The position numbers and the translations under genes are program-made. From Symbiodinium sp. CCMP2592 (lineage: Eukaryota > Sar > Dinophyceae > Suessiales > Symbiodiniaceae), in NCBI GenBank assembly GCA_905221615.1, contig CAJNDT010005423.1, positions 211,001 through 275,000 of the forward strand: a DNA stretch of 64,000 nucleotides, in the 5' to 3' direction. Positions 13,559 through 53,565 of this stretch are shown here, piece after piece. The notes beneath the pieces are model-generated. The model was not told the DNA's origin and did not search any database. It worked only from the letters and a program-made list of their open reading frames with translations. Numbering within the stretch: the first letter of the stretch is position 1; each line of letters begins with the position of its first letter.

Positions 13559-13884
13559 AACCTCTGTTGCTTGATTCCTGTAGCCTGGTGTTTGTTTCCT
13601 GTAGCCTGGATTTGGGTTGTTGTTTTGACATGGAAGGTGCTTGGGGGGGCCGTTTGGGATGTTAGGGCTTTGTTGTGTCATGCTTTATGCGACCCCTGGG
13701 GACAGAGGGGGGGGGGGCAGGACGGCCGAAAAAAGGTGATCAGACTTTGAAAGCATCAAGGAATATTTGCATCCCAGATTTTTACAACTGCTTTTAGAAG
13801 ATCATGCGACAATTTCATACATCCCTAGGGCTTCAGCGGTATTTTGTGTCCATTTCTCAGTGGCAGTAACATTTTGGACCTAGC

Positions 13885-13966
13885 AAAAAAATGCACTCCA
13901 CTTCCATATGTGATGACATCATTAGTAGAGTAACTACATCACATGTGGCAGGGTGTGCATTTTTTG
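13885..13966. repeat. Palindrome in left TIR with CACATGTGATG-type core
   Basis: Inverted arms AAATGCAC...CATATGTGATG and CATCACATGTGG...GTGCATTTTT around a short centre. The counterpart in the right TIR is at 53,132-53,208, and related palindromes occur inside the element. Confidence 0.8.
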
Positions 13967-14455
13967 ATAACAAGCATAATTAACATTCTTACACCCTAAG
14001 CCTTTAAACATACTTTACTTTACTGTAATAAGACTACCGAAACCCTGTTTTGGAAAGCTCACATCTGAAGCAACTCCCGAAACCTTACTGTGAACCCTAA
14101 ACCCCTTCAACCTAAACCTCTTACCTCTATAGGAACTCCCTGAAATGAAACCTTCTTACCCTTTAAACCCTAGTGATACCCCTTCAACTTGAACCTCTGA
14201 CCTCTATAGGAACTCCCTGAAACCTTACCCTTTAAACCCTAAACCTCTTAATCCTAAACTTCTTACCTCTAAAGAAACTCGCTGAACCTTGGCCTTATAA
14301 GCCCTAAACCCCTTAACCCTTAATCTCTTTCACGAGCCTTACAGAACACGTAAATTCTTTGTCCCCCCTGTCAGATCATTCAGCAACGGGGGAGCTTTGT
14401 CATCCAGGCCTCAGGAGTCGTCATGCATGCATTTCAGTGTTGGTTTCATGTCATG

Positions 14456-14580
14456 CATGGCCGCTGCTCAAGTGGCACACATCATGGCCGCTGCTCAAGT
14501 GGCGCACGGCATATCACGACACAGCCACTGATCAAGTGGTGCACACATGGCCGCTGTTCAAGTGGCACATGACATGACAT
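14456..14580. repeat. Four subterminal repeats in left TIR
   Basis: Units of 27-36 bases starting near 14,456, 14,483, 14,519 and 14,546, built on GGCCGCTGCTCAAGTGGC; the third is a variant (CCACTGATCAAGTGG). The right TIR has the same set inverted at 52,655-52,770. Subterminal arrays like this are often transposase-binding sites; that role is inferred. Confidence 0.75.
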
Positions 14581-14595
14581 GCATGCCTGCCTCTG

Positions 14596-15203
14596 GCTGT
14601 CTATTATTTTGATATTGTTATTGTTATTGCTGCGCTGGTCTTCCATATCAATCTAACTGCCATGGCTCGTCTGGCTATCATTATGGTCGCCCTCGTTGCA
14701 TTAGCGCTAGTCTTAGTCTGGCTGTCGTTATTTCTATATTTATGTTGTGCTAGTCTTAATGCTGCTGCTATTTTGACCCCTTGTTGTTGATGGCACTGCT
14801 GGTGTTGCTGCTGTTGCCATTGCTGTTGGTGTTCCTATGACAGCAACAGCACAACAGAAACGACGATACTACAAAGAAGTAAACAACACCGACAACAACA
14901 TTAGCACTGCAGCCTCCACCTGTAACGAAACCATCAACAAGCGGCTGTAACAACAATCACCCGACCTTTGTACTCAACATCCTGCAACTCTGCAACCAAA
15001 AGTTTCCAATAGCTAGCTACACCGTGCCATGCCACCAACAACACCCAGCAGCAGCAACAACAACAACAGCAACAACAACAACAACAACAACAACAACAGC
15101 GACAACAGCAACAACAGCAAGAGCAGCACTAACAATAACAATAACAATAACACTGACAATAAAACCAACAATGACAATAACAATGACAACGGCAATAACA
15201 ATG

Positions 15204-15234
<31 letters not shown>

Positions 15235-15269
15235 ACAACAACGACAACAACAACAACAACAACAACACC
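14596..15269. repeat. Triplet-rich low-complexity tract, left part
   Basis: 14,600-14,830 is TTG/TTA-rich. From about 14,840 it becomes CAA/AAC-rich, almost pure between 15,040 and 15,269. Long frames here (poly-Asn, poly-Thr, poly-Leu) are by-products of the repeat. Copia-2 is inserted into the tract, which resumes at 23,282. Confidence 0.85.
15265..15269. repeat. Target-site duplication ACACC, left of copia-2
   Basis: Identical to 23,282-23,286. Confidence 0.9.
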
Positions 15270-15447
15270 TGAAAAAGTACAAAGCGTCTGAAGTATGCAC
15301 AAACAGAGCTCAACCCTGAAGTCAGCACAGCACTCTGAAGTCCTCTTTGTCACAGCCAGCCTTGAGCCACACGAAGTGTGGTGGTCGAAGTAAGCTGGAA
15401 GGAAGTTACTGTACCGGGGAGGTGCACAGAAGTCTTATATCTTAACA
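15270..15447 (-). repeat. 3' LTR of copia-2 (left on + strand)
   Basis: 178 bp, TG...CA on the + strand, identical by eye to 23,104-23,281. In sense orientation it starts TGTTAAGATATAAGACTTC, with a TATA-like ATATAAG close to the start. Confidence 0.95.
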
Positions 15448-15619
15448 CGCTCCCTTGAAACAAAGAAGTTCACGAAGTTGTTTCAACCAAAAGAAGCTGC
15501 TGCACGAAGTGCTAGGATCGAGCGAAGTTGGAAGTCCTCCAAACATCGCAGAAGTGGCGCTTGCACAACAGCGCGAAGTGACTCCTTCGAAGTCACCAAA
15601 AGAAGTTAGGACCGAAGTC

Positions 15620-16009
15620 TCAGTAGCGTGCCCTCAGAAGTTGCACGGCAAGCTCACGACTCACCCACGAATCCGCCTCAGAAGTGTTCTCGAACCGGGC
15701 GAAGTCCGAAGTCCTCATCGGGATGTGCATGTAGCGGTTGAAGCCATGCGAAGTCTTCGACCAGGCGAGGTCAAAGAACTGTTGGAAGTTGCCCGGAAGA
15801 CGAATCACCGCCAAGGAAGTGCGGAGGTGAGGTCGCAGCACGAAGTGCTCGCCGGGCACGTTGATGAAGTAGTCGATGTACCGCCGATTCCAGAAGCGGA
15901 AGCGGTTACCTTCCACGAAGTTCAATATCTCGCTCGAGGTCATCCTGAAGGACAGAAGTCCGATGCCTCCTTGAAGCACTCGGTTGGCTTCGGTTGGGGA
16001 AGTCTCCAA
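15620..16009 (-). CDS. copia-2 small 3' ORF, possible continuation of the extra ORF
   Basis: A 129-codon frame overlapping the end of the 15,906-17,132 ORF in another frame. Its composition looks protein-like (RFRFWNRRYIDYFINVPGEHF and similar aromatic-rich stretches), so it may be the true C-terminus after one frame change near 16,010-16,040. No family recognised. The nucleotide word ACTTC falls in different codon frames here (TS, NF, DF), so it is not a protein repeat. Confidence 0.45.
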   Translation of the reverse strand: METSPTEANRVLQGGIGLLSFRMTSSEILNFVEGNRFRFWNRRYIDYFINVPGEHFVLRPHLRTSLAVIRLPGNFQQFFDLAWSKTSHGFNRYMHIPMRTSDFARFENTSEADSWVSRELAVQLLRARY

Positions 16010-17132
16010 CAGAAGCTGAAGTCCGAAGCACGCAAGCTACTTCGCTGACCTCGGAGAAAATGCGAAGTTCAACATATCCGGGGAGAATGGCTGCATATCC
16101 GAAGTCAGGTGAAGTTCGCCATCTCCATCTCGTGACATGCGCGTGAGGATGGAAGTTCAAGGAAGTGCAAAACCACAACCGGATCGAAGGCTCGGGAAGT
16201 ACATCAACGAAGTTCGGGCCGATATAGCTTGCCTTGAAGTTGATGCAGAAGTCCGTCTCGTTGGCCACATAAGAAGTGCTCCGGGCGAAGAGCTCCGGAA
16301 ACAGCGCCGCGGACTGAAGTGCCGTCACCACCGGGTTGTCCACGCCAGGTTGAAGTCGAAGTAGCGCGTAGACCAGCCTGAAGTCTGAAGTCCCAGGCAG
16401 CAGAAGTTTGCTGATCTGGCGGCCCTGGCGAAGTGACTCCAAGAAGTCAGGGACATGCTTGAAGTGCGTGAAGCACACATTGTCCACCGCGAAGTAGCTC
16501 ATCCCAGCGAAGTGGCTCCAGCCGAGGTGATCTCGGCCATGCCCGAGAAGTCGAGCCGCTTCCTTGCCATAGAAGTGTACCCGAAGTACATCCACGGCCC
16601 TGTGAAGTTGCTGGAAGTGCGCCGGGTGAAGTCCGCAGACCGTCTCGAAGTTACCCGAGGCGTAGCGCAACTCCAGCCACGTGTTCTGAGGAAGTGCTCG
16701 AGTGGGAAGTCGCGGCGGAAGTTCATCTCTCTCGAAGTTCGGGTCCGGAACGTAGAACTGATGCTCCTCCACGAAGTTGCGGAAGTCCCTCGTCATTTCG
16801 GCCTCTTCCGAAGTCGAGGGTCCTGGCAGTGCTGCCGGAGGAAGTCCAAGAGCCACTGCCTTTGGCACCGGAACCTGAAGTTTGGGGGCCATCTTCTCGA
16901 AGTAGAAGCACACAAACCACTGAAGACGTCGATCGCAAAGAAGTCTGTACCAAAACCACGTCCCAACAGAAGTGGGCACAATCCGGTATGAAGTTCGCAA
17001 ACCATCCATGCAGAAACGAATACCAAAGCGAAGTTGCCAAGAACCCAGCCAGAAGTAAGAAACCCAAGCAGAAGCCATGGCGGCAACGAAGTGAGGCACG
17101 AAGTCGCAGCCCAAAGGAGCGGCGGCGGCCAT
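15906..17132 (-). CDS. copia-2 extra ORF downstream of pol (unknown function)
   Basis: 408 codons starting at an ATG at 17,132 and lying between the RNase H end and the 3' LTR, a place where copia elements normally have no gene. The N-terminal 70 residues hold two aromatic/hydrophobic stretches that could be membrane-associated. The rest is a soluble-looking sequence with FRNFVEEHQFYVPDPN and HFAGMSYFAVDNVCFTHF. Envelope-like ORFs are known at this position in some plant copia lineages (Sireviruses), but I see no furin site or coiled coil that would identify one. It could equally be a captured host gene. It carries the same ACTTC density as the rest of the element. Confidence 0.55.
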   Translation of the reverse strand: MAAAAPLGCDFVPHFVAAMASAWVSYFWLGSWQLRFGIRFCMDGLRTSYRIVPTSVGTWFWYRLLCDRRLQWFVCFYFEKMAPKLQVPVPKAVALGLPPAALPGPSTSEEAEMTRDFRNFVEEHQFYVPDPNFERDELPPRLPTRALPQNTWLELRYASGNFETVCGLHPAHFQQLHRAVDVLRVHFYGKEAARLLGHGRDHLGWSHFAGMSYFAVDNVCFTHFKHVPDFLESLRQGRQISKLLLPGTSDFRLVYALLRLQPGVDNPVVTALQSAALFPELFARSTSYVANETDFCINFKASYIGPNFVDVLPEPSIRLWFCTSLNFHPHAHVTRWRWRTSPDFGYAAILPGYVELRIFSEVSEVACVLRTSASVGDFPNRSQPSASRRHRTSVLQDDLERDIELRGR

Positions 17133-17269
17133 GAAGTCCTTGCAAAGGCGGCTCTGGGGCGAAGATCTGAAACACAGAGGACCTCACTGACCCTGAAGTT
17201 GAAAGGGGAGCTCTGCCTTTAAAGCAAACGAATTGAAGTGAAACATCTTTCTGCACAGCATCCTAGAAG

Positions 17270-20200
17270 TTAGGGCAGCCTACCAAAAGGGTAGCCTACA
17301 CCTAAGGTTCCTAGATGCCTCTGAAGTACCTCACGTGAAACATACTTGGTTAACACATCAGCGGGGTTCGAAGTACCGGCAACTTTCTTCACTTGAAGTA
17401 TGTTTTGTTGAACCAACTCTTGCATGAAAAGATAGCGAAGTTCGACATGTCGAGTTTTCTTCGAAACACCGAAGCGCGTCGACATGCTTTTTCCGGCCGA
17501 AGAATCTGTGAAAACGCGTATGTTCACGCGCGAAGTGATGTTCATTTCGATGAGAAGTGATTTTACGAAAAGGCTCTCCGAAGTGCCCAGGCCAATGCTG
17601 TAAAGCTCGGCCTCTCCAGACGAAGTCGCTATCGTCTGCTATGTGCGGCTTTGCGAAGCAATTAAGCAACCGTTGAAGAACACAGACACACCCGAAGTAC
17701 TCTTCCTCGTAGTGACACAACCTGCCCAATCACTATCTACATACGCTACCACATCAAGAGAAGTCATTTCCCGACGAAGCATGACCCTCGGCCGAAGTGT
17801 CAGGACGCAGGCCTTGCTCCCTGCAAGGTACCGAAGTAGCATCTTGACCTTGGCCTTGTGAGCCTCTGTCGGGGAAGTTGATCCTCGAGACAGTTCCTTG
17901 ACAGCGTACTGAATGTCAGGGCGAATGCTGCTAAGCCAGAGAAGTTGGCCTACCACTCGTCTGTACTTACGGTGCTCGACTGTATCCAAAGGCTCTTCGG
18001 ATTCGATTTTCTTACGAAGTGAGTCGTTGCCGGGAGGGCTATGCCTACACTCCAAAAGAGCATATTCTTCTAGAATCTTGTCAACATACGAAGTAGGCAT
18101 GGAAATCTCGATCGCATCTTCGCGTCGTGTGATGCATCTACCTAAGAAGTTGATACTCTCCCCCGGCTGAAGCGTCCCTTCCCGTCTCAAAAGAAGACGT
18201 TCCTGAAGTTTGGCAAACAGGTGCTCACACGGCTCCTTTGCACCGAAGAGAAGTACATCATCTACGTAGCAAAGAAGGTACACCTTGTACTCAGGATGGA
18301 AGTAGAGATTAGGATCGCTTTTAAGACGCTTGAAGCCGAGATCGGCCATCACGCTCGCGAAGTGGGTCTGCCATGCCTTCGGACTCTGTTTCAGTCCGTA
18401 CATGGCTCTGCGAAGTTTCCATAGCACTCCACCGTTGGGGTAGAATTCACCCGGAGGGATCACAAAGATCTCTTCACTCAGAAGTGCGTGGAGAAACGCT
18501 GTGGACACATCGCCAGCAAGAACGAACCAGTTGAAAGTGCACGCAAGTGTAAGAAGAAGTTTGAGCGTAGCAAGCGAAGGTGTGCTGGCGAAAGTGTCGT
18601 CTGGGTCCTCGACGACTTGGTCGAAGCCTCTGACACACAGCCTGCAACGCACACCATCTCCCTTAGGGCGCTTAACCCATTGCGTGGAGATTGCGTCTCG
18701 AAGTTGCTCCTCGGAACATTCGCTCACAAGCTTTTCTTCGAACACATCGAAGTGCTGAAGAGATTCACGCTCTTTCTGCATGCCTTGAAGTTCTTGCTCC
18801 TTGTCAAACTCCGTGTCGTACCAGACAACAGGCTCACTTGCACGCAAGGCCTGAAGTTCTTCAGCACGGTCAACGTTAACCTCGACAGGAACTTCAAGAC
18901 CGTCACGCGTGGTCACAGAAGCAACGCAAGAAGTGTCAACCAGGCGATCCTCAAGCACCGCAGAGATTCGCCGAAGTTTGGTCGCACTGTCCGGGACCTC
19001 CGTGGAGATCTCGCGCTTCTCTCCCTGCGACTGTTCCAGCCTGGCCCGAAGTTGCGAAGGCGCATCCTCTGGAGGTGCCTCTGCGCTGCGCTTGCTTCCA
19101 GAAGTGCCGTCGGCACTGGAGCCGGCCGCGTCCTGCGCTCCCTGCGGGTCTGAGACTGCAGGCGCTGCGGCAGGCGAAGCTTCAGACTGGGCTGGAAGAA
19201 CGAAGTGAGCACTCTCCTCTTGGCGACCACGCGGGTCCCAAGGAGTCGCTTTCAACGAGTCAAGAAGCTCCTTGCTCACTTGATCCTCCGCAGGAAGTCT
19301 CCTGACGCTTCGTGTCTTGTACACGCCGTTTGCATTGCCGACAACATGCATGTCCGAAGTGGTTTCACGACCAAGCCACAACGCACGCTCCCAAGCAGGC
19401 TCAGCTTTAGGCACACGACCAGGAAGTCGGAACAAGACCACTTCTCCAAAGCGACAGACCGCAGAAGTGTACTTGCGGTCCCAGCGACGTTCGTAGGGCG
19501 TTTGCCCATCAGAACGAACAGAGAAGTTGTTCAACAAGAACTGTGCGTGCTTCACAAGCCACGGGAACACTGGCGAAGTGACAGGGATCTGGCAGTCGTA
19601 CCTCTCTGCCAGGTCGAGTCGAAGTGCTCGTACCTGTGAGTAGAGAAGTGCCTGCGCCTGTCCAACTGCACCTTGAGCCTGCTTCCACTCAGTAGGGCTG
19701 TTTCTCAACGACAAGCCACCTATTTCTGAAGTGACCGTCTCCGCTACAGCCTTGAGAGAAGGCTCTGGGTCGCACTGAAGTATGCCGAATGTCCGGCCAA
19801 CGTCCTGCACGAAGCGACGAAGTTCCGCTTCTGCATAGACGGAGTTACCTTTATTCGGCACAACCACCGAGAGAGACATGCCTGTGATCACATCTCGCAC
19901 GTTGAGAAGTGTAGCTTGGTTCTCTCCCTTGTCCGGCATGAAGGAGTAGTCGCATTGAAGCACGGGTTGCCTCATGCGAAGTTTCTTCGAGTGGTCCTGC
20001 CGGCTTTTGGCTTGAACACAGATCTTGCACCAGCTTCTGAAGGGAAGATGTGTGAGGTTGTGTTCTTCCCTTTCTTGTTCAGTTGGTGCCTTTGGTGCGC
20101 GAAGTGTCTTGGGCACTCTGGCGTCGGTGTCCTCACCAGCAACCGGAACGGGAAGTGGCTCAACGACCTCTTCCTCCGGCTTGGCGAAACACGTAGCTCC

Positions 20201-23056
20201 TGTGAAAGTGAAGCCAACCTCTCTCTTGGAGGCTTCGCTTTCGAAGTCCCAATTATCTTCGCGCCACTGGTCACCTTCCGAAGTGCACAAGCAAGTCATG
20301 CGCTCACGACCAAGCTGGGTGACATCAGGGCCACCTTGAAGTTCCTCCTCGTTGGGAACAAACAACGTGCTACGCGGAACGAAGTGAAAGCGAATCCACA
20401 TCAACGGTGTGTCCAACCAGAAGTCATGTTCATACGGAAGGCCTGTGCTTGGATCTGGCTCTTGAAGTTGAGATGCCACAAAGCGTCTCACACTTGCCTC
20501 ATTTCCATCCGAAGCTTCACGAAGGCTCTTCTGAAGATCAGACCTCTTCGGATACAGCGAAGTTTCTGGTCTGAAAGACTCTGTCGCAACAGGGGCGCGA
20601 GAAGTGCGCGCTTGCTCAGCTGGAGGAGAAGCTTTCGGATCCTCGTGGGCCGGCGGAGTGAGAAGTGACCTCTTCTGAAGAAGTCTCGTCGGCGGGCGTT
20701 GGTTCGGAGGAGTTGTAAGTTTAAACTCCGTTCTTCCTTTCCAGAAGTGATCCAGCGCTCGCGTGGGCTCATCTGAAGTGACCCAGTTGTCCGTGAGCTC
20801 CTTCTCATTTCCTTGAGCATCAACCACGAAGGTTTTCCGCTCTTGAGCAAGCTTGTTCAGCGCCACTGGTCTATCTGAAGTGCCGCTTGGCACAAACAGA
20901 TTTTTGCGAGGGCGCTTGTGATACCGCACAAGAACGTTTCTTGCGGGATCGAAGTGCCAACGATCAGCGTGGTAGTACACAGGCTTAAACGCTGACACCG
21001 TGCTCTCAGCCTCCGTTGCGAAGTTTTCGTGGAACGCAACACACACCAACTCGAAGTCGTGTTTGACAAAAGGAAGTATTTCCGGCTTCAAGAAAAGAAG
21101 TGAACCCTCACGCTCAACAGGAAGGTGCTTGCCATCTGGAGCGTGAAGTGTCAGCTCATCCTTTCCTAAAGTTGCGGTGTAGTTCTGGGCTAGAAGTCTT
21201 CCTACCGAAACGATAGGATAGCCAATGTCTGTGACATAGAAGTGCATGTGAAACTCAACATCACCTATCTTCATTCCTACAAGTCGTCTACCGTAGATGT
21301 TGAGGAGCTGCCCTGTTACACTGCGAAGTGGAGGCGCTCTGTCTTGGAGTGGAAGCAACGGCCACTCTCGGGCGAAGTTCTTGGGGCAGCAATGAGCTGC
21401 TGCACCGCTGTCAAACAAAATCCACTGCGGGCTCAAAGAAGTTACAGAAGCGACATGTTCCTCAAAGAACACATCCTTGAAAGAGGTGTTGAGGTGACTC
21501 AAACCCGAAGTGAAAAGCGTACTGAGAAGTGTGGACTCCTGACCGGGTCCTTCGTCTTCGAAGTTCGGCATTGGCATCGTCGGGGCGATGCTGAACGAAG
21601 ACCCTGAAGTTACACTACCTAGCGTAACCGCAGCAAGCAGAAGTCCTGAGGCTGTTGAGGCTTTCGGCTTGGGTGAGGCTTTGGCTTTCGAAGTTTTGTC
21701 GGGAAGTGAAAGGCCTGGAGGCTCACCGAAGGTAACAGCCGAAACCTTGTCAGCCGAAGTTGCTGAAGTCTGCGTAGCTGCTGGTGGTACCGGCGCTTGG
21801 TTTGAAGTTTCGCTTGAGGTGGCTGGTTGGGAGGCTTGAGAGAAGGGAGTCGGGTCGTAAGCCCAAGGATCCTCATTCCAAGCAGAAGTCCACCACGATC
21901 CATCATCCCATGCATCAACCTGCCATGTGAAGTCATCAATTGCACCGATCCACGAAGCATCATCCCATGAGGCATCCCAGGCATCACCGAAGTCATGCCC
22001 TGCGTCATACTCTCCTGTCCAATCTGCATTCCAATCACCTGAAGTCTCATCTACCGCGGAAACACGATACTGATGCGGACACTCTCTCGAAGTGTGGCCA
22101 ATTTGGCCGCACGTCCAACATGTGATTGCTCCCGTCTTTCCTGAACCCGAAGTTCCTTTCTTTCCATTTCCTTCCTTTCCTCCTTTTCCTTTTCCTGATC
22201 CTTTGAAGTTTCCTTTCATTCCTTTTCCTGATTTCCCTTTTCCTTTCATGAAGTTCCAGTGGCCGAAACCACTCTTTCCTCCTTTCACTCCTTTGGGGCC
22301 GAAGCCCTTTCCTTTTCCTTTCTTTCCTTTGAAGTTTCCTTTGCCCCAACCTTTCAGGGCTCCTACATCCATCGGGGCTGGACCTTGAGAACTTGAAGCT
22401 GTGCCCTGAAGCATAAGCCTTGATCTGAAGTACGATACAATCACTTCTCTCATCTGCGCGTAGGTCCTGATCGAAGTCGAGTTCAACCTCAGGTGCTGCT
22501 GAAGTTGTCCTGAAGTCTTATTCAACAACGTAGCTATGAGAACTCCGTCGGGCAGCGAAGTGCCTGTGAGCGTCTCATATCTGACCTTGACCGTCTCCCA
22601 TGAAGTGAAATCTTGCTCGAACGTATGCGTGTTGAATTTCCAATCAAGAACTTGTGCGAGAAGTGCGTGCTCGCGCTGCGCGTTGGGCATGCTGAATTTC
22701 TGTTGAAGTCTTCTCCAAGTTTCGAAGCCGTTTCCACCGACGTTCTGACGAACTACAAGTTTCGCGGCACCCGAAGTGAGATTTGCGAGGAGAACATGAA
22801 GTTTTCGACTGAAGCGAATGAGCTCGGCTGATCTGGCTTCCGGGAACCTGTCACCTCTGAAGTGTTCATCTATTACCTCTACGTTCGCATTTCCTGATCT
22901 CTCAAGAAGTTCAGCAATTGCAGGATCAAACAATGAAGCATAGATTGTGAAGTTCCACTGCCATTCTTCCCAGTCCTCAGGATTTCCACTAAAGACCGGC
23001 GGAAGTGGCAACCGAAGTTTGCCTGCGAACTCTCCTTCTAGCTCAGCTGCTGACAT
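17270..23056 (-). pseudogene. copia-2 Gag-Pol polyprotein, interrupted by one in-frame TAG
   Basis: From the ATG at 23,056 the frame runs 1,805 codons to TAG at 17,639-17,641, then continues in the same frame for 122 codons to 17,270. Gag is followed by a KG-rich basic region and a CCHC knuckle (C313, C316, H321, C326). Protease shows DSG at D549. Integrase has the zinc motif H999, H1003, C1010, C1013, then D1036 and D1096; exactly 35 residues on, position 1132 is Gly instead of the expected Glu. RT has YVDD at 1597-1600. RNase H has YVDSDWAG, then the stop directly before QTIATSSGEAELY, where related elements have Gln, so CAG to TAG is the simplest explanation. The element looks unable to make active integrase or full RNase H by itself, although readthrough cannot be excluded. 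Confidence 0.9.
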
Positions 23057-23090
23057 CTACGAAGTTTCCTACAAAGGCCTAGGAGCACGA

Positions 23091-23103
23091 AGCTCCGCTA
23101 CCA
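23091..23103 (-). other. Primer-binding site of copia-2
   Basis: On the - strand TGGTAGCGGAGCT starts at the base next to the 5' LTR. It is identical to the copia-1 site, implying the same initiator tRNA-Met. Confidence 0.85.
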
Positions 23104-23281
23104 TGAAAAAGTACAAAGCGTCTGAAGTATGCACAAACAGAGCTCAACCCTGAAGTCAGCACAGCACTCTGAAGTCCTCTTTGTCACAGCCAGCCTTGAG
23201 CCACACGAAGTGTGGTGGTCGAAGTAAGCTGGAAGGAAGTTACTGTACCGGGGAGGTGCACAGAAGTCTTATATCTTAACA
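23104..23281 (-). repeat. 5' LTR of copia-2 (right on + strand)
   Basis: 178 bp, identical by eye to 15,270-15,447. It contains seven GAAGT words on the + strand. Confidence 0.95.
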
Positions 23282-25141: not shown

Positions 25142-25142
25142 C

Positions 25143-26252: not shown

Positions 26253-26316
26253 GGGTTTTAGGGTTTAGGGTTTAGGGTTTAGAATTAGGGTCGGGTTTTT
26301 AAGAGCTGTGTATGGT

Positions 26317-26930: not shown

Positions 26931-26936
26931 TCCGCG

Positions 26937-43695: not shown

Positions 43696-43895
43696 GAGCA
43701 AGCACGTTTTGAGATGATGCGAGCTTGTTTGTGCTCTGGTGTGAACAAAATGTACTTCAGCTGTGCAAGTGCCTGTCATTTGCTCCAGTACATGCATGCA
43801 TGTTGCTGGCATCTTGATCATTCCTGATGTCTTTTCTGGCACCTGCCTGCCTTCTGACACTATCTCTTAGAATCGCGGCCAAGGGTTCACGACCC

Positions 43896-43943
43896 CGGAC
43901 TCAGAGTCACAGAGTCACACAGTCACAGACTCAGAGTCACCGA
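43896..43943 (+). promoter_or_regulatory. GAGTC octamer array upstream of gene 5 start
   Basis: Variant units with CAC instead of CCC (GAGTCACAGAGTCACACAGT...) end three bases before the ATG at 43,946. Confidence 0.6.
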
Positions 43944-43945
43944 TC

Positions 43946-44920
43946 ATGGCCCCTCGTGCGTTGACGCAGAACGACTCGGTCGGCTCTGATGACTGGTATG
44001 ATGCTTGCCAGCAGAAGCAGCAGCCCGCTGTTCTTGACGAGAAGCCCTCACTGCCGGTGTGGTCAAGATCTCCGAAGAGAGGACTTCAGACCCAGGAGAG
44101 CATAGCTGAAAAGAAGCAGAGAGTCGCTGCGAGCGCGTGGAAAGACTGGACGCAGCCAACCCCTGGGCGTGAGGAGTTGAAGGCAGACAAGACAACACCC
44201 AAGAAGCCGACGGAGAAGAATTTTCAGCAGCAGCAGCAGATGTTGCTCAACAGGCAAGCCATCGCAGCCTCAGTAGCTGCCCAAAAAGCCGCCCAAGCTG
44301 CCGAAGCCTCCATAAAGCTGGCTTCGTTTGCCACCCACCAAGTGGACAAAGCTAAGACTGCTGCCGGGCAAAGCCAGGCTGCTCTCAAGATGCAGCCTCC
44401 TACGACACCTCCGAAGCCTCAGCAGCCCAGTTCCACTGCAGCATCCAATGGAAATGATGGCGAGGACAACCCTGTCGCCGAGGACGAGAAGCAGGCTGCT
44501 ACTGATGAGAATACCAGCGATGCTAAGAAGGGCAACCTCGGCAAAGGTCAGAAGTCGGCTGGCAATAAGCCGGCTAAGCTGACGCCGGACGAGTCGACGT
44601 CGGAACCCCTCACCTTTGGAGGGCGCAAAGTTCCTAACGGCAACGATGCTGCGGAGGTGTTCAATCTCAAGAAGAAGCTCTTCTACTTCTACGAGACACG
44701 TGAAGAGCTGCAGAAGAAGTTCCCGGGCAAGTCGATCCACAGCGGTGCCACAGGGAGCCAGGATAGCTACTGCAAGCACGTCAAGGACCACATGGACAAG
44801 GTGAAGAAGCAGAAGCAGGGCAAGAAGATGACACAGGACGAGGTGAGAGAGCAGATCAAAGAGGCAGCACGGCTTTGGAAGGAGAAGCTCAGCAAGAACA
44901 TTGACAAGAGCAAAGCCTGA
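43946..44920 (+). CDS. Gene 5: single-exon, charged protein of 324 residues
   Basis: One uninterrupted ORF from an ATG placed directly after an octamer array. The N-terminal half is low-complexity (QQQQ, Ala-rich helix AAQKAAQAAEASIKLASFA, acidic/Ser linker). The last 110 residues look folded and basic-helical (NLKKKLFYFYETREELQKKF, then VREQIKEAARLWKEKLSKN), slightly reminiscent of an HMG-box-like or other DNA-bending helix set, but I cannot assign it. The stop at 44,918-44,920 is followed within 20 bases by another octamer array. Confidence 0.75.
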   Translation: MAPRALTQNDSVGSDDWYDACQQKQQPAVLDEKPSLPVWSRSPKRGLQTQESIAEKKQRVAASAWKDWTQPTPGREELKADKTTPKKPTEKNFQQQQQMLLNRQAIAASVAAQKAAQAAEASIKLASFATHQVDKAKTAAGQSQAALKMQPPTTPPKPQQPSSTAASNGNDGEDNPVAEDEKQAATDENTSDAKKGNLGKGQKSAGNKPAKLTPDESTSEPLTFGGRKVPNGNDAAEVFNLKKKLFYFYETREELQKKFPGKSIHSGATGSQDSYCKHVKDHMDKVKKQKQGKKMTQDEVREQIKEAARLWKEKLSKNIDKSKA

Positions 44921-44940
44921 GATGTGTGGGTCTTGCAGGG

Positions 44941-44992
44941 CCGAGTCACCGAGTCCCTAAGTCACAGAGTCCTCGACTCTGAGTCTCTGAGA
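44941..44992 (+). repeat. GAGTC octamer array downstream of gene 5
   Basis: GAGTCACCGAGTCCCTAAGT and following units. 44,993-45,334 holds no evident gene. Confidence 0.7.
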
Positions 44993-45334
44993 TTTGTCCG
45001 TGGGTTTCAAAGAAGAAGCCAGTTCTTCACAGGTTTTCAGTGTCAGCAACCCATGAGGCGACACTGAGGTCGAATTCTGAGGAATGCGGCCGCTTTTGCT
45101 TTGCCAAGGCACGGAGCAGAGTCCAGTTAGCCCTTTCAAAGTCTCTGGTGCCGAGTTCCGATAGTCCTTGAGTCGCACATTGTCTGGGGGTGTTGACAAA
45201 GAGAATGACGTCTTCTTAGCTCACTGCACATATAACATACATGATATGCTTCGGAGACTATTTGTTGCTGTGATCATGTGATCATGTGTTGAATCCTATT
45301 CCACAACCTTTGTGGCTCCAGCAGGGCAGCAGTC

Positions 45335-47871
45335 ATGAGGCCCAGCTGGCTTGAACCAGCGCCTGGGGGCTCTGAAAGTCGGCGGGCAAGTAGGGACTAC
45401 TCATGGCTGAACATGTCTCCTGCGGGATCGGGCGCTGAGGGATCTGTGCACCGACCAAGTTGGCTGACACCCTCTCACACTGGCTCTGGGTCGTCTTCGC
45501 CCCCCAGGAAGAGGGTCGCGTTACAGAGTCGCAGAGCGCAAAGTCACAAAGCACAGACTCCCAGAGAGCAGATGAACCCCTGGACATCTGCATCCCAGAG
45601 TTCTCAGCTTCGGACAGAACGGCCTGACAGACCAAACTGGACCACACCGTGCCCGGATCGCAGCTTTACTCCAGCCAACTGCAAGGCAACAGAAGATAAC
45701 GCAGCCATGCCGGAGGTTCATCTCACCATTGCTTCAGCACTTTTGGCTGCTGGTGATCAAGACCTCTCAGCCTCCGACAGAACAGACTGCAACAAATCCC
45801 GTCTCAAAGAGCTTCTTGATAGCCCATGCTCCTTTGGTCGGTGCCGATCGGGTCACTGCAGTGTGTGTGAGCCTGGCTTGAAGCTCGAGGATGTTTTGGC
45901 TTTCCGTCGAGTTTTTGATGGCATGGGCTCAGCAAGGCGGGCTGCATTCCTGAACAGGTCTTATGGAGATGCCAAAGCTGGCAACACTCGCTGCAAGTGG
46001 ATCTTCCTTGAAAAAAGGTGTTGTGAGAGACAGCTGTTTGCTTTACTCGAGATATCGGCCAGCACACTTGGCAAGCTTTGCAAGGGCCATTGCTTCGATG
46101 GCCGTGTCACTAACGGACGGATGGTGACTGAAGCTGGTATGTCGGTGGATCAGTTCTTCTTGGAGATGTACCATTCTGCAGCAGAGTTTCTCCCAGAGGA
46201 TGACACATGCCATATGGAGAATGTTGATTGGACTGTGCAGCAGGAAGAGTTGCAAGAATCCCAAGCACCGGATCTGGGCCGGGATGATGAAGATCTGGCA
46301 CCAATGTTGGGATGGGACCCTGAGAAGTCTTGGCTACACACAGCCATTGCATCAGCCGCTGATGCACACTTGCCCAAGCGGTATGTGCAGCACAAAAAGC
46401 CAATCGATATTTGGTGGCTTTACTTGGCATGGCGCCTAGTCAGAGTCCCAGAGTCCCAGAGTGCAGACTCAGAGTCCAGAGCGGCCTGTTGGAGCACATT
46501 CTGGCAGCGGTGGAGCAAGAGTGCCTTGGTTAAGAAGGTTATTGTCATTTGCAGAGGGACTATGTTTCGTGTCGCTCAGGATGGTGCCACTGCATTGGCT
46601 TGCGCAAGCCGACACAACATGCTCAGTGCAACGATTGCAGCAAGTTTTCCAACCTACTTCACTTCGGCGATGCTTCTGTTGCAGAAAAGAAAGCGGCGGC
46701 GAAGGCTTGGCAGGATCACCTCAAAGCACAATATGTCGACCGTGTCATATACTGGCACTTGAGGTGGTACAGCAAGGTGCCTGGATCAAACATCCTCTGC
46801 ATAATCCTGGATGGCATGGACAAGAGTAAGGGTAGCTGGCCACAACTTCCGTTCCGGAAGCCGAAGAACCTGGAGAAGTTCCACAGACCCCGTTTGACCA
46901 TTCACCTGGCATTGGCCCATGGATTTTGTGCTGATTTCTATCTCGCTGATGACGAGAACTTCTTTCACGGTGCCTCTTTCTTTTGCGAGATTCTCACGAG
47001 GACTTTGGCCCGTGTACAGGAAGCTTGCAGGCAGCAAGGAAGATCCATGCCTGATCATCTCGTTATCCAAAGTGATAACACTACAGCACAGGCCAAGAAT
47101 GCAGAGGTCGCGAACTTCCTCGGGGTGCTTGTGCGGAAGTTCAAGTTTCAGTCCTGTGTCCTGAACTTTGTGCGTGTAGGCCACACGCACGAAGACGTGG
47201 ATTTTGTCTTCAGCATCCTTTTGGCCAAGGTTCTGAGACGATGCAAGGTCATGGTGCCAGAAGACCTCAGGACGGGCATCCTCACAGGCATGACACCCGT
47301 CCTGGCACCCAAGGGCTATGATGTGAATGTGGAGATCCTCACACATGTCAGGAATTTCCAGTCATGGCTCGGGGCTATGTGTGTCCATCCTCACAACTGC
47401 TATAAACGACGTGAAGGCATCCTGGCACCCCATTCCTTCACCTTCAAGCTCCGCATGGATTTGGCACCCCGTGAGCAGCAGCTATTGCTGCAGCATCCCA
47501 CTGACAGAGGTTGGCCTTCTAATCCTCTCGATGTCTTTTGTGTTGTGAAGACTTGGATGCAAAGCCACGGTCCAAACGGGCCTCCTACCTTGCTTATCCC
47601 GGACGCACGCTTCGACAGAATCAGCACCGCAGCCCCAACAGAAGCTTGTCGGGCCAGCCACCCAATGAGACAGCAGAGGACAAAGGAACTGCGGCAGCTG
47701 GCAGACGCACTGGAGGAACTCACAGGCACATGGAAAGCTGAACACTCCATGTTCCGGTCGGCCCAAGAACTCCGAGATCTCGCTGACGGAAGGAACCGAG
47801 AACCATCACAGGACGGGTACTTGGAGGCGTTGGAGGCTCCACGGGAAGACCCAATCGTTGAAGCAGCCTGA
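45335..47871 (+). CDS. Gene 6: DUF7869-like, DDE-transposase-like protein
   Basis: The first part (from the ATG at 45,335) has three SWL-type motifs (PSWLEP, YSWLNMSP, PSWLTP), a Cys/His cluster (CSFGRCRSGHCSVC) and a helical region ending near LAWRL. A frame change to the second part is best explained by an intron beginning GTCAGAGTCCC at 46,439 and ending TTTGCAG at 46,554 (116 bases, in phase), although the in-frame stretch TFWQRWSK would then be lost. The second part has HAQCNDC, ILDGMD, QSDNT and GHTHEDVD, the order and spacing I associate with DUF7869 proteins, whose acidic residues suggest an RNase-H-like fold. This would make it the leading candidate for mobilising the 40-kb element. 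Catalytic activity is inferred, not shown. Confidence 0.65.
46441..46480 (+). repeat. GAGTC octamer array inside gene 6, probably intronic
   Basis: CAGAGTCCCAGAGTCCCAGA and degenerate units directly after the predicted donor site. Confidence 0.65.
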
Positions 47872-48083
47872 GCCTGAGTTGCCACAGTTGACAGGTGTTC
47901 GTTCTTTCACATCAGGACTTTTGTTGAGTGGTCCTTAGGACAACCCGTACTATTCAACATTGCCCGATATCTCCTGGCGAATGATGGTCCGCTTCGGCAG
48001 ATGACGGTGAGTGTTCGAAGTGACTTTGTGATTTGGAAGTCCGGACTTCTATCTAGTTTCTGTCTCACTGTTTCTGAGTTCGG

Positions 48084-48125
48084 AAGTCTCAGAGTCACAG
48101 AGTCACCGATTCTGAGTTCCTGATT
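48084..48125 (+). repeat. GAGTC octamer array between genes 6 and 7
   Basis: CTCAGAGTCACAGAGTCACC and following units, about 210 bases after the gene 6 stop. Confidence 0.65.
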
Positions 48126-48245
48126 CGAGCGTGTCTCGCTTGGGACTAAAAGCAAGTGTTGCCTTGTGCTTGCAAGCGCTTGGTGAAAGCCCGGCACTGC
48201 TTCCATCGGTTGCTATTCACCGATAAACAGCCTTTCGGCTTGTTC

Positions 48246-48280
48246 AGACTCAGAGTCCCTGATTCTGAGTCCCAGATTCT
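48246..48280 (+). promoter_or_regulatory. GAGTC octamer array upstream of gene 7 start
   Basis: CAGACTCAGAGTCCCTGATT and one more unit end a few bases before the ATG at 48,286. Confidence 0.6.
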
Positions 48281-48285
48281 GTGCC

Positions 48286-49443
48286 ATGGAGCCAGAGGTT
48301 TTTGGAATGACCGCTATGTCTATCCTGGAAGATGAGTCTTTGGCAGATTTGCCACGTGACATCGATGTTGCGGAAATCTTTGCAGGTGTAGGCAGCATCG
48401 CAAAGGCAGCCAAGCAGGCGGGTCTCGCAAGTGTGGCCTTTGACAAATTTCGTCAACGTGGGAAAACTGACACATCTTCGTGGGAAAAATCAGAAGACAT
48501 CGTCGTTCCGGCAGGCTTCCACAATGCGGTAAAAACTATTATGCGGGTTCGCAAGGGAGGCTTGGCAGTCTTCGCACCCGTGTGTTCTTCTTGGAACTTC
48601 CTTTGTGCGTCAACAACGAAGCGTCGTGCAGACAATTCTTATGTGGGGAACACATCGGCCCCCAGTGTTGCTGAGGGAAATCTCATGGTCGATGCAACGC
48701 TGGTTCTCATGGAATTGGCTCTTCTTCGCGGGGTACATGTGGTCATGGAGAACCCTGTGGGCAGTTATATGTTCAACTACCCCCCTGTGGAGTCTTTCAT
48801 GCAGAAGCACAGCATGTATTCTGTCATCGTGAATCGATGTGGTTATGAAACAGACACAAAAGTGGGGAAGAGAATTAAGAAGCAGTTCAAGCTGGTTTGC
48901 AGCCATTCCTGGATTGCAAAGGTGGCCAAGTCTTGCCCATGTGGCGCAGCTGGACATGTGAAGACTTACATTCGATGGGTGGACACGAACGGCAAGACGA
49001 AAGTCACGGGTCGCCCTGCTCTTCTGAAAAAGTCTGGATCCTACCCTGCAGCCATGGCCAAATGCATTGTGAACTCTTGGCGAGCCCACAGCAGCAGCCC
49101 GAGGCCAGCTTCAGGGGCTGGGCAGCCATCATTGCCATCAAGATCACAAGCCTCGACGAGTTGGTTGACTCCCACAGTTGCGCGATCGCCGGTGGCCGCT
49201 CAGAGTCACCGACACAGAGTCTCAGACCCCGACTCCGGTGGAAAGAGAACCAGGACTCAGAGTCACAGAGTCTCAGACCCAGACTCCGGTGGAAAGAGAA
49301 CCAGGACTCAGAGTCACAGAGTCTCAGCTCCACAGTCCTGGTTGAACCCGACGTGCAGCAGGCAGAATTCTGTGAAGACAGGCAGACCAGCCAGGACAAA
49401 AGCTCCAAGCTGGATGAACCCAGAACCTTTCCGGTCGCTGTAA
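48286..49443 (+). CDS. Gene 7: SAM-methyltransferase-like protein
   Basis: 385 codons. VAEIFAGVGSIAKAAKQAG near residues 28-46 matches the SAM-binding motif I of C5-cytosine methyltransferases, and APVCSSWNF near residue 100 sits where their Pro-Cys loop (PCQ) lies, although the Cys context differs. ENPVGSYMF follows, comparable to the ENV motif. A Cys/His group (CSHSW...CPCGAAGH) may bind zinc. The C-terminal 110 residues are low-complexity, with two 17-residue repeats and three SWL/SWM motifs (TSWLTP, QSWLNP, PSWMNP) like those of gene 6. Whether it methylates DNA is unknown; dinoflagellates have families of such divergent proteins. The start follows an octamer array. Confidence 0.65.
   Translation: MEPEVFGMTAMSILEDESLADLPRDIDVAEIFAGVGSIAKAAKQAGLASVAFDKFRQRGKTDTSSWEKSEDIVVPAGFHNAVKTIMRVRKGGLAVFAPVCSSWNFLCASTTKRRADNSYVGNTSAPSVAEGNLMVDATLVLMELALLRGVHVVMENPVGSYMFNYPPVESFMQKHSMYSVIVNRCGYETDTKVGKRIKKQFKLVCSHSWIAKVAKSCPCGAAGHVKTYIRWVDTNGKTKVTGRPALLKKSGSYPAAMAKCIVNSWRAHSSSPRPASGAGQPSLPSRSQASTSWLTPTVARSPVAAQSHRHRVSDPDSGGKRTRTQSHRVSDPDSGGKRTRTQSHRVSAPQSWLNPTCSRQNSVKTGRPARTKAPSWMNPEPFRSL
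49200..49325 (+). repeat. 51-bp tandem repeat with octamers inside gene 7 coding sequence
   Basis: Slightly more than two units of CAGAGTCTCAGACCC(C/A)GACTCCGG followed by TGGAAAGAGAACCAGGACT. Translated as HRVSDPDSGGKRTRTQS repeats. Confidence 0.8.
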
Positions 49444-49489
49444 AACACAATTTGTTGTTCGTGTTGCAGCGCCTGCCTGTCTGAGCCAC

Positions 49490-50262
49490 AATTTAAGCAA
49501 CCACTCCTCATCGCTCCTAGGCCTTTGCGGATCGTTGTCATCGAGAGTCCACATCATCGAAGTTGACAGTTTAGAAGACTCTTAAAAGTTCAAGCTCGGG
49601 GATGTCAGAGCCGAAGTTAAACATTGACGGTTGAAAGGTGTCATGTCTTTCTTTCAGGCCTGAGAAGCAGTTGTTCCACAGATTAACTTCAGTGGTAAAT
49701 ATAATGCTTTTGTTTGAAGGTGCCTCAAACAGGGCTGGACCTCTGTTGATTTTAGAGATCAGGCTGCCAAGTAGTACTAAGTAGTCAGGCTTCTGTAATT
49801 ATCTAGTTTCAGTTTAGCAAAGTTGTGGGTGTAAAGACGTAAGAAAGTAACTTCAAAGATGTGACCACCACACTGTCTGTGATGTCATCTAGCAATTATA
49901 AAAAGCATGATCACGTCTAGCCAAATAGTAAGTTACACATCACATACAGGAGTGGTGCACATCTTTGACCAAGGCCTCGAAATAAAAGCCTGACTGCTTG
50001 ACAGCCTAACCCCAAATCTCCTCATAACAAGCCCAAGTTTGAGATCCTGTCCGACACAGCTAAGGCGGGTGTGTGGGCATCACTGGGCCTTCGGTGGCCC
50101 AGACCTCAGTCCAAGTCCTAATTTACTAATTAAAGCTTCCAGGCTATTTGAATGCATGTGTGCAGCATGGTGTGTGCCGGCATGGCCGGTGACTTTGCGG
50201 CACTGCCATAACACAGGATGAGTTCTCTGGCAGCATCTGGGCTTACTTGCCACTTTATTGTG
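49490..50262. other. Non-coding stretch with one palindrome
   Basis: No gene-like frame. 49,852-49,969 is a diverged palindrome of the CAAAGATG...CACATCTTTG type. Confidence 0.6.
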
Positions 50263-50303
50263 CCGAGTCCCAGAGTCTCAGATTCCCAGAGTCTCTGAGT
50301 CCG
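50263..50303 (+). promoter_or_regulatory. GAGTC octamer array upstream of gene 8 start
   Basis: GAGTCCCAGAGTCTCAGATT and two further units end about 10 bases before the ATG at 50,313. Confidence 0.6.
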
Positions 50304-50312
50304 GTTCCTGTG

Positions 50313-51106
50313 ATGGGGAAGAAGGCTCCGGCATCACAGAGGATGATGGGGAAGAAGGCTCCGGCATCACCGAGGATGAAGGCGAAAGCCAAAGAGCCAG
50401 GGAAACCAAGAAAGCGGAATCCCAAGACAGCAGGAGCAGAACAAGGAGGAGCCAGTCGCAGTGGGCCGAGTGGGAAAAGTGGCACGAGCGGCCGGAGTGG
50501 TTGGGAGCCCCGGGATCGGAATTCCAAGGCCGATGTTAAGGACGACGATCACAGCAGTCAGGCTGATTCCGAAGAAAGCAAAGGCAGCAGCATCAGCAGC
50601 ACCTGGCCCAGCAGCATTGAAAGCGAGCCCAAGGAGAACGAGAAGACCACACAGACCCCGCCTTGGATCAGGCGGTTGCGGCGTGCGCGGGACCTTGAGG
50701 ACAGAGTTACAGAAGAGAGACAGACATGATGAGGTTGAAGTTTGCCAAAGGCACATGATTTCCCTAAACAATTGAGGATTTAGAGCAGCGTGGCTACGAC
50801 ACTTTGCTCCGGGACAGTGCCGAGGCTGAATCGAGAAGGCTTTGTTTTGCTAAGCGAAGTTTCCACAGTTTGCTATCAGCACCTTTGAGATTCATGGTCT
50901 TCCCAGGCCGACAGGTAATGGATTTCGGTACGAACGAAGTATTGGACTTGGGCGCTCGAGTCATTTACAGACCTATGACAACTGGCATTGCGGGTGCCAG
51001 GTGATTCTACTCCGGGAAAGGCTAAGCCCCTGGACTTTTTTTACATCAGAGTACGGACACACCTGTGACACCCGGCATCGCTGCCGCTGCTGCTGTGATG
51101 TTTTGA
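50313..51106 (+). CDS. Gene 8: small basic/acidic disordered protein, three inferred exons
   Basis: Exon 1 (50,313-50,705) starts with two repeats of MGKKAPAS and continues Lys/Arg/Ser-rich, then acidic. The donor GTTACAG follows a codon end (...RARDLEDR). Exon 2 (50,777 to about 51,000) reads DLEQRGYDTLLRDSAEAESR and ends GIAGA. Exon 3 (about 51,052-51,106) would give STDTPVTPGIAAAAAVMF before a stop that runs straight into an octamer array, the arrangement seen at other gene ends. Introns are about 71 and 50 bases. The second acceptor would be CAGAG, as also proposed in gene 4. Function unknown. Confidence 0.55.
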
Positions 51107-51170
51107 CTCCTGACTCTCTGAGTCTCAGAGTCCCGGAGTACCGGCGGATGTCTGAGTCCTCTGACTGAGT
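51107..51170 (+). repeat. GAGTC octamer array downstream of gene 8
   Basis: Starts at the stop codon of gene 8: GACTCTCTGAGTCTCAGAGT and on. Confidence 0.7.
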
Positions 51171-51232
51171 GATTGATTGAATCGCCGAGCATTGATGATG
51201 TGGCAAAGAGGTTCCTGTGGCACAGACAGAAT

Positions 51233-51800
51233 GCACACGTAACGATGTGTGTGCGCGCTGTTTCTTTGCTTAGTATTGTGTGTAGCAAACCACATAAAGT
51301 CACACATGCGCGCGCGCGCGCTCCTTTCATGCGCGCGCGCGCGTGTGCGCATCCTTGTGTTTTGCTATATACAATTACTAAGCAAACAAACACACACGCG
51401 CGCGCGCGCGCTTACTGTGCGCGCGCGCGCTTACTGTTCGCTCGCGCGCGCGCGCTTACTGTGCGCGCGCGCGTGTCAGGTGTGTGCGCGCGCGCGTGTG
51501 TTTGTTTGCTTATTAATTGTATATAGCAAAACACAAGATGCGCGCGCGCGCGCGCGCGTGAAAGGCGCGCGCGCGCGTGAAAGGAGCGCGCGCGCGTGTT
51601 TGTTTGCTTTTAGTAATTGTATATAGCAAAACACAAAGATGCATGCGCGCGCGCGCACGGTAAAGCGCGCGCGCGCGCGTGAAAGGCGCGCGCGCGCGTG
51701 AAGCGCGCGCGACCACATGTGTGACTTTGTGGTTTGCTACACTCAATATATTAAGCAAAGAAACAGCGTGCACGCACATGTTTACGTGTGTGTGCAGAGT
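51233..51800. repeat. (CG)n-rich island inside a large imperfect palindrome
   Basis: The outer arms (about 51,245-51,310 and 51,712-51,790) are inverted copies: GTGTGTAGCAAACCACATAA pairs with TTGTGGTTTGCTACACTC-like sequence. Between them are about ten (CG)5-10 runs separated by short linkers. Inner inverted copies of TTTGCTATATACAATTACTA also occur. No gene. Confidence 0.85.
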
Positions 51801-51944
51801 GCTTCTGGCTTTAAATTATTCATTTCATGTAGCAAACACAAAGGAACGCTTTTCCTCGGGCAATACTGCCTGCTCTGAGGCTGTGATCACCATCGGCGGC
51901 CGGCGATGCTGGCCCCTTCTGCTGTGCCGAGCCCTGACACGCCA

Positions 51945-52440
51945 AGCAAACCACCACAACAATAACAAGACCGGCCACACAACATCATCAAACAACAACC
52001 ACAATAACAACACCAACACCACCAACAACAGCACCAACATCAACAGCAACCATAACCACATTGACAACACAACCAGCAACAACTGCAGTAGCAACATCAA
52101 TAACAACAGCACCGATACCCTAACGATAAGAACCACTACAACATTAAGAACACGAATATCAACCACCATAAACAAATATTACTGACAATAGCGCAACGAC
52201 AGTTACAATAACAACAAGATTAACAGTAGCAACTGCAGTAACAATGGCAATCACAAGAACAACAGCAATAACAGTAACAGTCACAATGGCAGCAGCAACA
52301 GCAACAGCAGCAACATCAACAGCATTCACAAGATTGACAACCAACCGTAGCAGTGTGGAAAGAGGATTAACATTACGAACAACAATAATAACAGCAGGTG
52401 TCACAACAAGAGCATCAACATCATCATGAACAACAGGGAG
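51945..52440. repeat. Triplet-rich (AAC/CAA) tract near right TIR
   Basis: Similar in composition to the tract beside the left TIR, but less pure. 52,441-52,620 is T-rich and non-coding. Confidence 0.8.
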
Positions 52441-52620
52441 TTGCTGGTTGCCTGATTGTTTCTGTTTCTTTGCACTGTCACTATGATGTTGTTGTTTTCC
52501 TTAGGTGTGTCTCTCTGTTCTTGTTGTGCTGCTTATATCTACTGCCACTGTCGTGCTTGTGTTACTATCCATTGTGGCGCCTATTTTATGCTTGCTGTCC
52601 TTATTCCTATAATTGTTCAT

Positions 52621-53565
52621 GAGGCAGGCATGCATGTCATGTCATGTGCCACTTGAGCAGCGGCCATGTGTGCACCACTTGATCAGTGGCTGTGTCGTGA
52701 CATGCCGTGCGCCACTTGAGCAGCGGCCATGACGTGTGCCACTTGAGCAGCGGCCATGATGAATGACATGTTAAACTTAAAACCCTCACATGCATGCATG
52801 ACGAGTCCTGCCTGGATGACAAAGCTCCCCCGTTGCTCAATGGTCTGACAGGGGGTGCACAGGTGGTATTTAAGGCTAGGTAAAGTTCGTGAAAGAGGTT
52901 GAGGCTAGCTTAGGGCGCAGGGCCAGGTTTCAGGGAGTTGCTGTAGATGTCAAAAGTTTAGGTTTAGTAAAGGGCTTGTTTAAGGTTAAACTAAGGGTTA
53001 GAGGTGAAAGGTTTAAGGGGTTTAGGGTTCAAAGCAAAGTTTCAGGGAATTGCTTCAGAGGTGAAGTTTCAAAAACTTGGTTGAGTCTGAAAGTTTGTTA
53101 AGGAAAGTTTGTTAAGGGGTTCAGGGCGTAAGGAAAAATGCACACCCCGCCACATGTGATGTAGTTAATAATATCATCATCACATATGGAAGCGGAGTGC
53201 ATTTTTGGTCATGTCTATGCCCTAATGCTTTCCATTCTTAAATGAAACTTTAAATACACCTCAAAATCTTACTGCCACTGAGAAATGGACATAAATACCA
53301 CTGAAGCCCTATAGAAGTAGGAAATTTTCGCATGATTCTTTCAAAACCAAATGTAAAAATCTGGGATGCATATACCTTGATGCTTTCAAAGTCTGGTCAG
53401 CTTTTTTTGGAGGGCCCTGCCGCCGCCCCCCATACGAGGGACCCAAGGTCACACAAAAAAAATCTAACATCCCAAACCCCCAAGCACCTTCCATATCAAA
53501 ACAACAACCCAAATCCAGGCTACAGGAAACAAACACCAGGCTACAGGAATCAACCAACAGAGGTT
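52621..53565 (-). repeat. Right terminal inverted repeat of the 40-kb element
   Basis: Reverse-complement match to 13,559-14,593, ending CAACAGAGGTT at the outer border. It includes the inverted subterminal repeats (52,655-52,770) and a telomere-like degenerate stretch (about 52,870-53,120). Confidence 0.85.
53132..53208. repeat. Palindrome in right TIR
   Basis: AAAAATGCACACCCCGCCAC ... CGGAGTGCATTTTT; counterpart of 13,885-13,966. Confidence 0.8.

Follow-up and report, generated by a model that had tools for sequence, protein, structure and literature searches.

An insertion of 40 kb in a repeat locus

A 40-kb block of DNA with inverted ends interrupts a reading frame of a repeat in the dinoflagellate Symbiodinium sp. 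CCMP2592; did it arrive there as one mobile element, and if so, what moved it? The block occupies positions 13559-53565 of the window analyzed, a stretch of 64,000 bp without N (contig CAJNDT010005423.1, assembly GCA_905221615.1), and our study concerns one copy in one assembly. We found that it is a real giant insertion of 40,007 bp, bounded by terminal inverted repeats (TIRs) of about 1 kb, with the tetranucleotide AAAC directly outside each end. The segment most likely arrived by jumping as one very large gene-carrying transposon, because its two ends are inverted copies of each other, a short duplication of the target flanks it and a likely transposase is encoded within it, and there is little doubt that it represents one single insertion. 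The first-pass annotation of this DNA had already described inverted repeats of about 1 kb with AAAC on each side; the complementarity of the TIRs indeed ends at 13559 and 53565, in exact contact with the two copies of the target-site duplication (TSD) at 13555-13558 on the left and 53566-53569 on the right. The chance of finding equal 4-mers, one per flank, was 0.55% in 200,000 random draws. TIRs with an adjoining short target duplication, the features by which class II cut-and-paste elements are recognized, are thus both present at 13559-53565.

The left TIR lies at 13559-14593 on the plus strand and the right TIR, located by the inverted-repeat search of the window, at 52621-53565 on the minus strand. 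Whole-window BLASTN aligned them in two blocks, 13559-14125 with 53565-52996 (72% counting gaps, E 5e-93) and 14249-14593 with 52966-52621 (83% counting gaps, E 7e-98). Nine inverted pieces lying more than 2 kb apart were detected at E up to 1e-3, seven belonging to these TIRs and two being short matches (39 and 45 nt) among simple repeats; the TIR pair is the sole strong distant inverted-repeat pair in the window. Each TIR is bipartite, the two arms being identical at 86 of the outer 88 bp, at 135 of the inner 138 bp and at 552 of the 647 aligned columns of the middle, which also has 234 gap columns. The outer part holds two 21-bp direct repeats, CCTGTAGCCTGG, per end (13577 and 13598; 53547 and 53526 on the opposite strand), and the inner part, with repeat units from 14457 in the left arm, contains at each end three copies of GGCCGCTG(C/T)TCAAGTGGC plus one variant, units that occurred only in the two TIRs and nowhere else in the window with the patterns searched. 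Near-identity of the outer and inner parts beside a gapped middle is what would be expected if both parts were recognized, suggesting that the outermost and innermost sequences may be transposase recognition sites.

The left TIR further contains an imperfect palindrome (13886-13965; DNA fold -21.5 kcal/mol, z -5.9), with a counterpart in the right TIR at about 53134-53206; it went undetected in a BLASTN self-search of the left arm on the minus strand. The observed/expected ratios of CpG were 0.36 and 0.37 in the left and right TIRs and those of TpG 1.38 and 1.29, compared with 0.64 and 1.24, respectively, for 23282-53565 (right TIR included), and CpG-poor TIRs are what methylation decay would leave. 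Single telomere-type units are present in both arms, three CCCTAAA in the left and one TTTAGGG in the right. When TIR sequence was sought beyond the window, the 18-mer GGCCGCTGCTCAAGTGGC matched 1 viral stretch and 29 prokaryote-genome stretches, once each, the latter compared with about 7 expected in 257 Gb by a hand estimate assuming flat base composition; we judged these matches to be due to chance, because none of them had the repeated arrangement of the TIR. The outer TIR 18-mer had 0 matches in viral contigs.

Inside the element, on the minus strand, lies a copia long terminal repeat (LTR) retrotransposon (15270-23281) with LTRs identical at 178 of 178 positions, TG..CA ends, an RVT_2 domain (E 1.9e-29), a zinc knuckle and the TSD ACACC (15265-15269 and 23282-23286). 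This copia is a later guest, younger than the element and outside its core. The earlier description of one giant mobile element therefore stands for the single 40-kb insertion with its TIRs and TSD, but not for the 8.0 kb that copia contributed later, without which the element measures about 32 kb.

The interrupted frame and its paralogue

The insertion lies in a repeat rich in proline and glutamine, with two open reading frames (ORFs), of which there are two diverged copies: copy A, the interrupted one, at 11443-13558 plus 53570-54902, and copy B at 56951-60093. As had been claimed, removal of 40,011 bases, that is, the 40,007-bp element and one TSD, restores the frame, the joined flanks giving 670 codons without an internal stop. 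In the present sequence the frame left of the insert runs on into the TIR, and another frame starts to its right. Joins shifted by 1 or 2 bases met a stop within codons 266-289 and a join shifted by 3 remained open; since 40,011 is divisible by 3, the open joined frame is by itself worth only about one in three. Comparison with the paralogue adds to this: the match of the right flank to copy B (ORF 58060-60090) begins 2 residues past the junction (E 2e-5 in a two-protein database) and scored 32.7 bits, the highest of 100 shuffles being 24.6, and further left, ORF1 of copy A matched ORF1 of copy B over 35 aa (E 2e-8, two-protein database). With an ORF1 match on the left and an ORF2 match on the right, the two copies are collinear by sequence comparison.

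The repeat had been taken for a long interspersed nuclear element (LINE), an assignment that our results do not establish: among the 12 flank ORFs submitted to Pfam, a part of all flank ORFs, none matched reverse transcriptase. A second copia, at 1198-11442 within locus A, has LTRs identical at 180 of 180 positions, the TSD CCACG and a 3111-aa ORF with RVT_2 and SAP domains. Joining its flanks gives an open frame of 257 + 527 codons, which lends little support since a second frame, of 251 + 145 codons, is open there too.

A candidate transposase with a DUF7869 domain

The Pfam scan of the insert covered 36 ORFs: 32 of the 65 that measure 110 aa or more (the remaining 33 lie on both strands), together with 4 shorter ones. 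One of them, at 46534-47868 on the plus strand, matched DUF7869 (PF25273) over residues 121-290 (E 1.3e-24; 87.3 bits, gathering cut-off 26) and no further Pfam family at E up to 10. It is preceded by an ORF at 45335-46440 with W-L-x-P motifs, in all likelihood an N-terminal exon of the same gene, so that the transposase candidate spans 45335-47868. By reading, we noted D93 (in DGMDK), D181 (in SDNTTAQ) and E220 (in HTHEDVD), with 38 residues between the last two; these residues would be spaced as a DDE triad, and DUF7869 may accordingly be a DDE domain. Scans of viral contigs (sensitive to close relatives only) and of genome contigs revealed no relative of the DUF7869 ORF, and a literature search for the name DUF7869 gave no match. 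The DUF7869 protein is the best candidate for the element's transposase, and probably is that enzyme.

A methyltransferase-like neighbour sharing a tail motif

Downstream on the plus strand, the ORF at 48286-49440 encodes a cytosine-methyltransferase-like protein whose segments FAGVGS, PVCSSW and ENP we take to resemble motifs I, IV and VI of C5-methyltransferases. Its database support consists solely of PHROG 757, annotated 'DNA methyltransferase' (E 0.012): the ORF matched no Pfam family, DNA_methylase included, and no PADLOC family (one match at E 0.019 carried no description), while NCBIfam and PDB each returned one unrelated match (E 0.75 and 0.99, respectively), and another search of solved structures gave none at E up to 1. 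The methyltransferase-like core had no relative in viral contigs in a scan that detects close relatives only, and tblastn with two element proteins found none in phages. Whether the product acts as a methyltransferase appears evenly balanced on these motifs.

Near its N-terminus, the transposase candidate has two instances of the pattern [PS]W[LM]xP (four in a looser form), and the methyltransferase-like protein carries three, as W-L/M-x-P, in its C-terminal tail. Of 20,000 shuffles that preserved composition, 1 and 0, respectively, attained as many occurrences, figures that flatter the motif because it was chosen after the sequences had been seen. When a wider pattern was applied to every ORF in the window with 100 aa or more, 9 matches appeared, and these two ORFs account for 6. 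The shared motif suggests that the two proteins may meet one common partner, and the methyltransferase-like gene would thereby belong to the element instead of being chance cargo.

Proposed mechanism and competing explanations

We propose that 13559-53565 is one DNA transposon, probably inserted by a cut-and-paste DDE reaction. The DUF7869 protein (45.3-47.9 kb) would bind both TIRs, at the subterminal repeats of their inner part and at the 21-bp repeats of their outer part, and pair the two ends; it would then join these to a target opened by cuts staggered by 4 bp, so that one AAAC comes to lie on either side. The methyltransferase-like protein would be a gene product of the element, perhaps marking the element's own DNA. 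A bolder version, which we regard as rather unlikely, is that the element represents a new giant-transposon superfamily, whose DDE transposase, of the DUF7869 type, would be partnered via W-L-x-P tails with a divergent cytosine methyltransferase; the latter would mark the TIRs, in keeping with the low CpG content of both arms, and so time transposition or hide the element, and several further cargo genes would be lineage-specific.

Several observations weigh against this proposal. The mobile behaviour of the segment rests on one copy. The 167 codons left of the junction scored 18.1 bits against copy B, the highest of 100 shuffles being 21.6; the first-pass statement that the rejoined peptide aligns with copy B across the junction holds for the right part (32.7 bits), but is too strong as a whole, because the left peptide does not rise above shuffles. 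In the candidate transposase, D93 is the least secure residue of the triad because it falls outside the matched residues 121-290, searches of solved structures gave no significant match (none at E up to 1 in one search; one unrelated, E 1.6, in another), and single-sequence AlphaFold models had a mean predicted local distance difference test (pLDDT) score of 32.0 and 37.5 (the latter for the DUF7869 ORF), too poor for a fold search. The gene must also bridge an exon junction between its two ORFs and may be broken. The identity of the methyltransferase leans on motifs and a match at E 0.012, with none in Pfam. Finally, the many indels between the TIR middles indicate that the ends have not been freshly homogenized.

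The alternative that survives best, although we consider it unlikely, is that the DUF7869 gene, alone or together with the methyltransferase gene, belongs to a smaller element nested inside a 40-kb TIR unit that was moved in trans by another transposase, the cargo being passive. Palindromes, satellites and the nested copia make the interior a patchwork, and very short TIRs could escape an inverted-pair search; nevertheless, a search of 44000-50500 (word 7, E up to 1) for inverted pairs separated by more than 500 bp found none, and no other Pfam transposase family rose above the cut-off in the 36 scanned ORFs. Quite improbable is a composite or fold-back structure, in which two inverted 1-kb non-autonomous repeats came by chance to surround host genes. 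Long and diverged TIR arms would suit such an origin, but the 1-kb unit itself lacks inverted ends (compared with itself on the minus strand, the left arm gave no match and the right arm none other than its internal palindrome), the duplicated AAAC sits at the outer borders and the frame resumes over all 40 kb.

It is very improbable that the segment is an integrated virus or a long-TIR element of the Polinton kind. The size and TIR length of the insert would be compatible with either, and Polintons/Mavericks generate a TSD of 6 bp. Maverick-annotated repeats, rich in 5-hydroxymethyluracil (5-hmU) and depleted in accessibility, have been described in the dinoflagellate Breviolum minutum (PMC11071213). 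Here, however, the TSD is 4 bp and not 6, none of the 36 scanned ORFs matched a polymerase (PolB included), capsid, packaging protein, ATPase or retroviral-type integrase, and four element proteins lacked a relative in viral contigs, in which the scan detects close relatives only. An assembly artefact is the least probable of all, for although the analysis was made on assembled sequence and not on reads, the TSD is exact, the frame is restored, and alignment of the two arms shows many substitutions and 234 gap columns, which argues that the TIRs are not a fold-back of one sequence.

Gene models and repeats of the interior

The first-pass annotation had predicted about eight genes, including a DDE-like candidate, and gene models bore this out. 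We trained a codon model on nine hand-picked ORF pieces, all nine of which remained above zero in leave-one-out tests (0.08-0.42 bits per codon). Of the interior ORFs with 70 codons or more, 27 exceeded the threshold; 18 of them were combined into eight gene models, of which seven lie on the plus strand and the eighth on the minus strand, and the 9 that overlapped others or stood alone were set aside. The codon model lacks specificity, since it also passed 18 ORFs beyond the element's ends and 7 whose start falls in the nested copia, and the count of eight is a guide and no proof.

Besides the two genes discussed above, the models supported by codon score comprise the only one on the minus strand, a coiled-coil, proline-rich ORF by eye (24428-25198; no Pfam family above cut-off), and, on the plus strand, a multi-exon model without Pfam match at 26775-29400 (ORFs 26775, 27173, 28344 and 28780), a possible gene of two overlapping ORFs at 35307-36417 (without Pfam match), a multi-exon model at 39339-43532 (ORFs 39339, 39626, 40264, 41589, 42887 and 43194; no Pfam family above cut-off), a 349-aa ORF with a charged C-terminus at 43871-44917, which was included in the Pfam scan, and a possible gene consisting of a basic low-complexity ORF at 50193-50726 (without Pfam match). 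Two cargo ORFs had no close relative in viral contigs, the scan being one that detects close relatives only, and Rfam, tRNA and bacterial promoter scans gave nothing usable.

The interior is also rich in repeats. A 2.2-kb satellite at 33034-35252 is built of 22-, 45- and 23-nt units with a common GAACACTTAT core, of which 58 exact forward copies were found at 33040-34882 and 0 in the rest of the window; for AAGTGTT, the shorter reverse core, we counted 12 copies at 34993-35241 and 4 in other places. Telomere-type TTTAGGG clusters are present at 25545-26732 and 30014-30208, long imperfect palindromes, perhaps nested insertions resembling miniature inverted-repeat transposable elements, at 38636-38891, 51234-51790, 25671-25782 and 26336-26447, and a 255-bp direct repeat (98%) at 25652-25906 and 26317-26571. 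Together with AG microsatellites, the clustering of ORFs on a single strand and the style of the copia elements, the TTTAGGG-type repeats point to a dinoflagellate, perhaps one of the Symbiodiniaceae.

Relationship to known elements

The target of piggyBac transposons is TTAA. The target here is AAAC, and the DUF7869 ORF had no match to a piggyBac-type transposase, setting the element apart from piggyBac and Teratorn. Nor does it resemble KDZ/Zisupton elements, for which a TSD of 8 bp is given in the part of PMC12730594 available to us: the TSD is 4 bp, and no KDZ transposase domain was found in the DUF7869 ORF (Pfam, E up to 10). Giant eukaryotic TIR elements treated in the accessible part of a review (PMC6431247) include Teratorn (piggyBac plus a herpesvirus), Polintons/Mavericks and the enlarged EnSpm of Chondrus. 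The Symbiodinium element shares with them TIRs, a DDE enzyme (a candidate here), many genes per mobile unit and a size of up to tens of kb or more; unlike them, it had no viral, piggyBac or EnSpm match in the scanned ORFs and combines bipartite TIRs of about 1 kb, a 4-bp TSD and a DUF7869 transposase candidate. An element with these features is not described in that part of the review, and a comparable one was not found among titles and abstract openings on giant, dinoflagellate or TIR transposons. The 40-kb element is probably a new variant among giant TIR transposons.

Two other groups pair mobility with enzymes that modify DNA bases. Fungal transposons bearing TET/JBP genes (KDZ, Plavaka, hAT7, IS3EU and PHISTA; PMC12730594, in the part available) resemble the present element in combining a transposase with such an enzyme, both being candidates here; they carry a dioxygenase, whereas this element has a methyltransferase-like protein, their TSDs are of 8 (Zisupton), 7, 6 or 2-3 bp, whereas this one is of 4 bp, and the DUF7869 ORF matched no other transposase family in Pfam. 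SymbioLINE-Dnmt and SymbioDIRS-Dnmt3, Symbiodinium retrotransposons carrying cytosine methyltransferases (PMC5890265, from the text available), are likewise mobile and equipped with a cytosine methyltransferase (a putative one in our case). They possess reverse transcriptase, in contrast to this TIR DNA element, whose only reverse transcriptase match lies in the nested copia (0 in the 36 other scanned ORFs), and the methyltransferase-like protein here has no match to PF00145, the domain used in that study.

Elements this large can transport entire genes and remodel genomes that are themselves very large. If our reading is true, the uncharacterized DUF7869 family would gain a concrete candidate job, with defined ends and a defined target duplication, and the pairing of a transposase with a DNA-modifying enzyme, as in fungal TET/JBP transposons and, with reverse transcriptase in its place, in retrotransposons carrying DNA methyltransferases, would extend to a giant TIR element.

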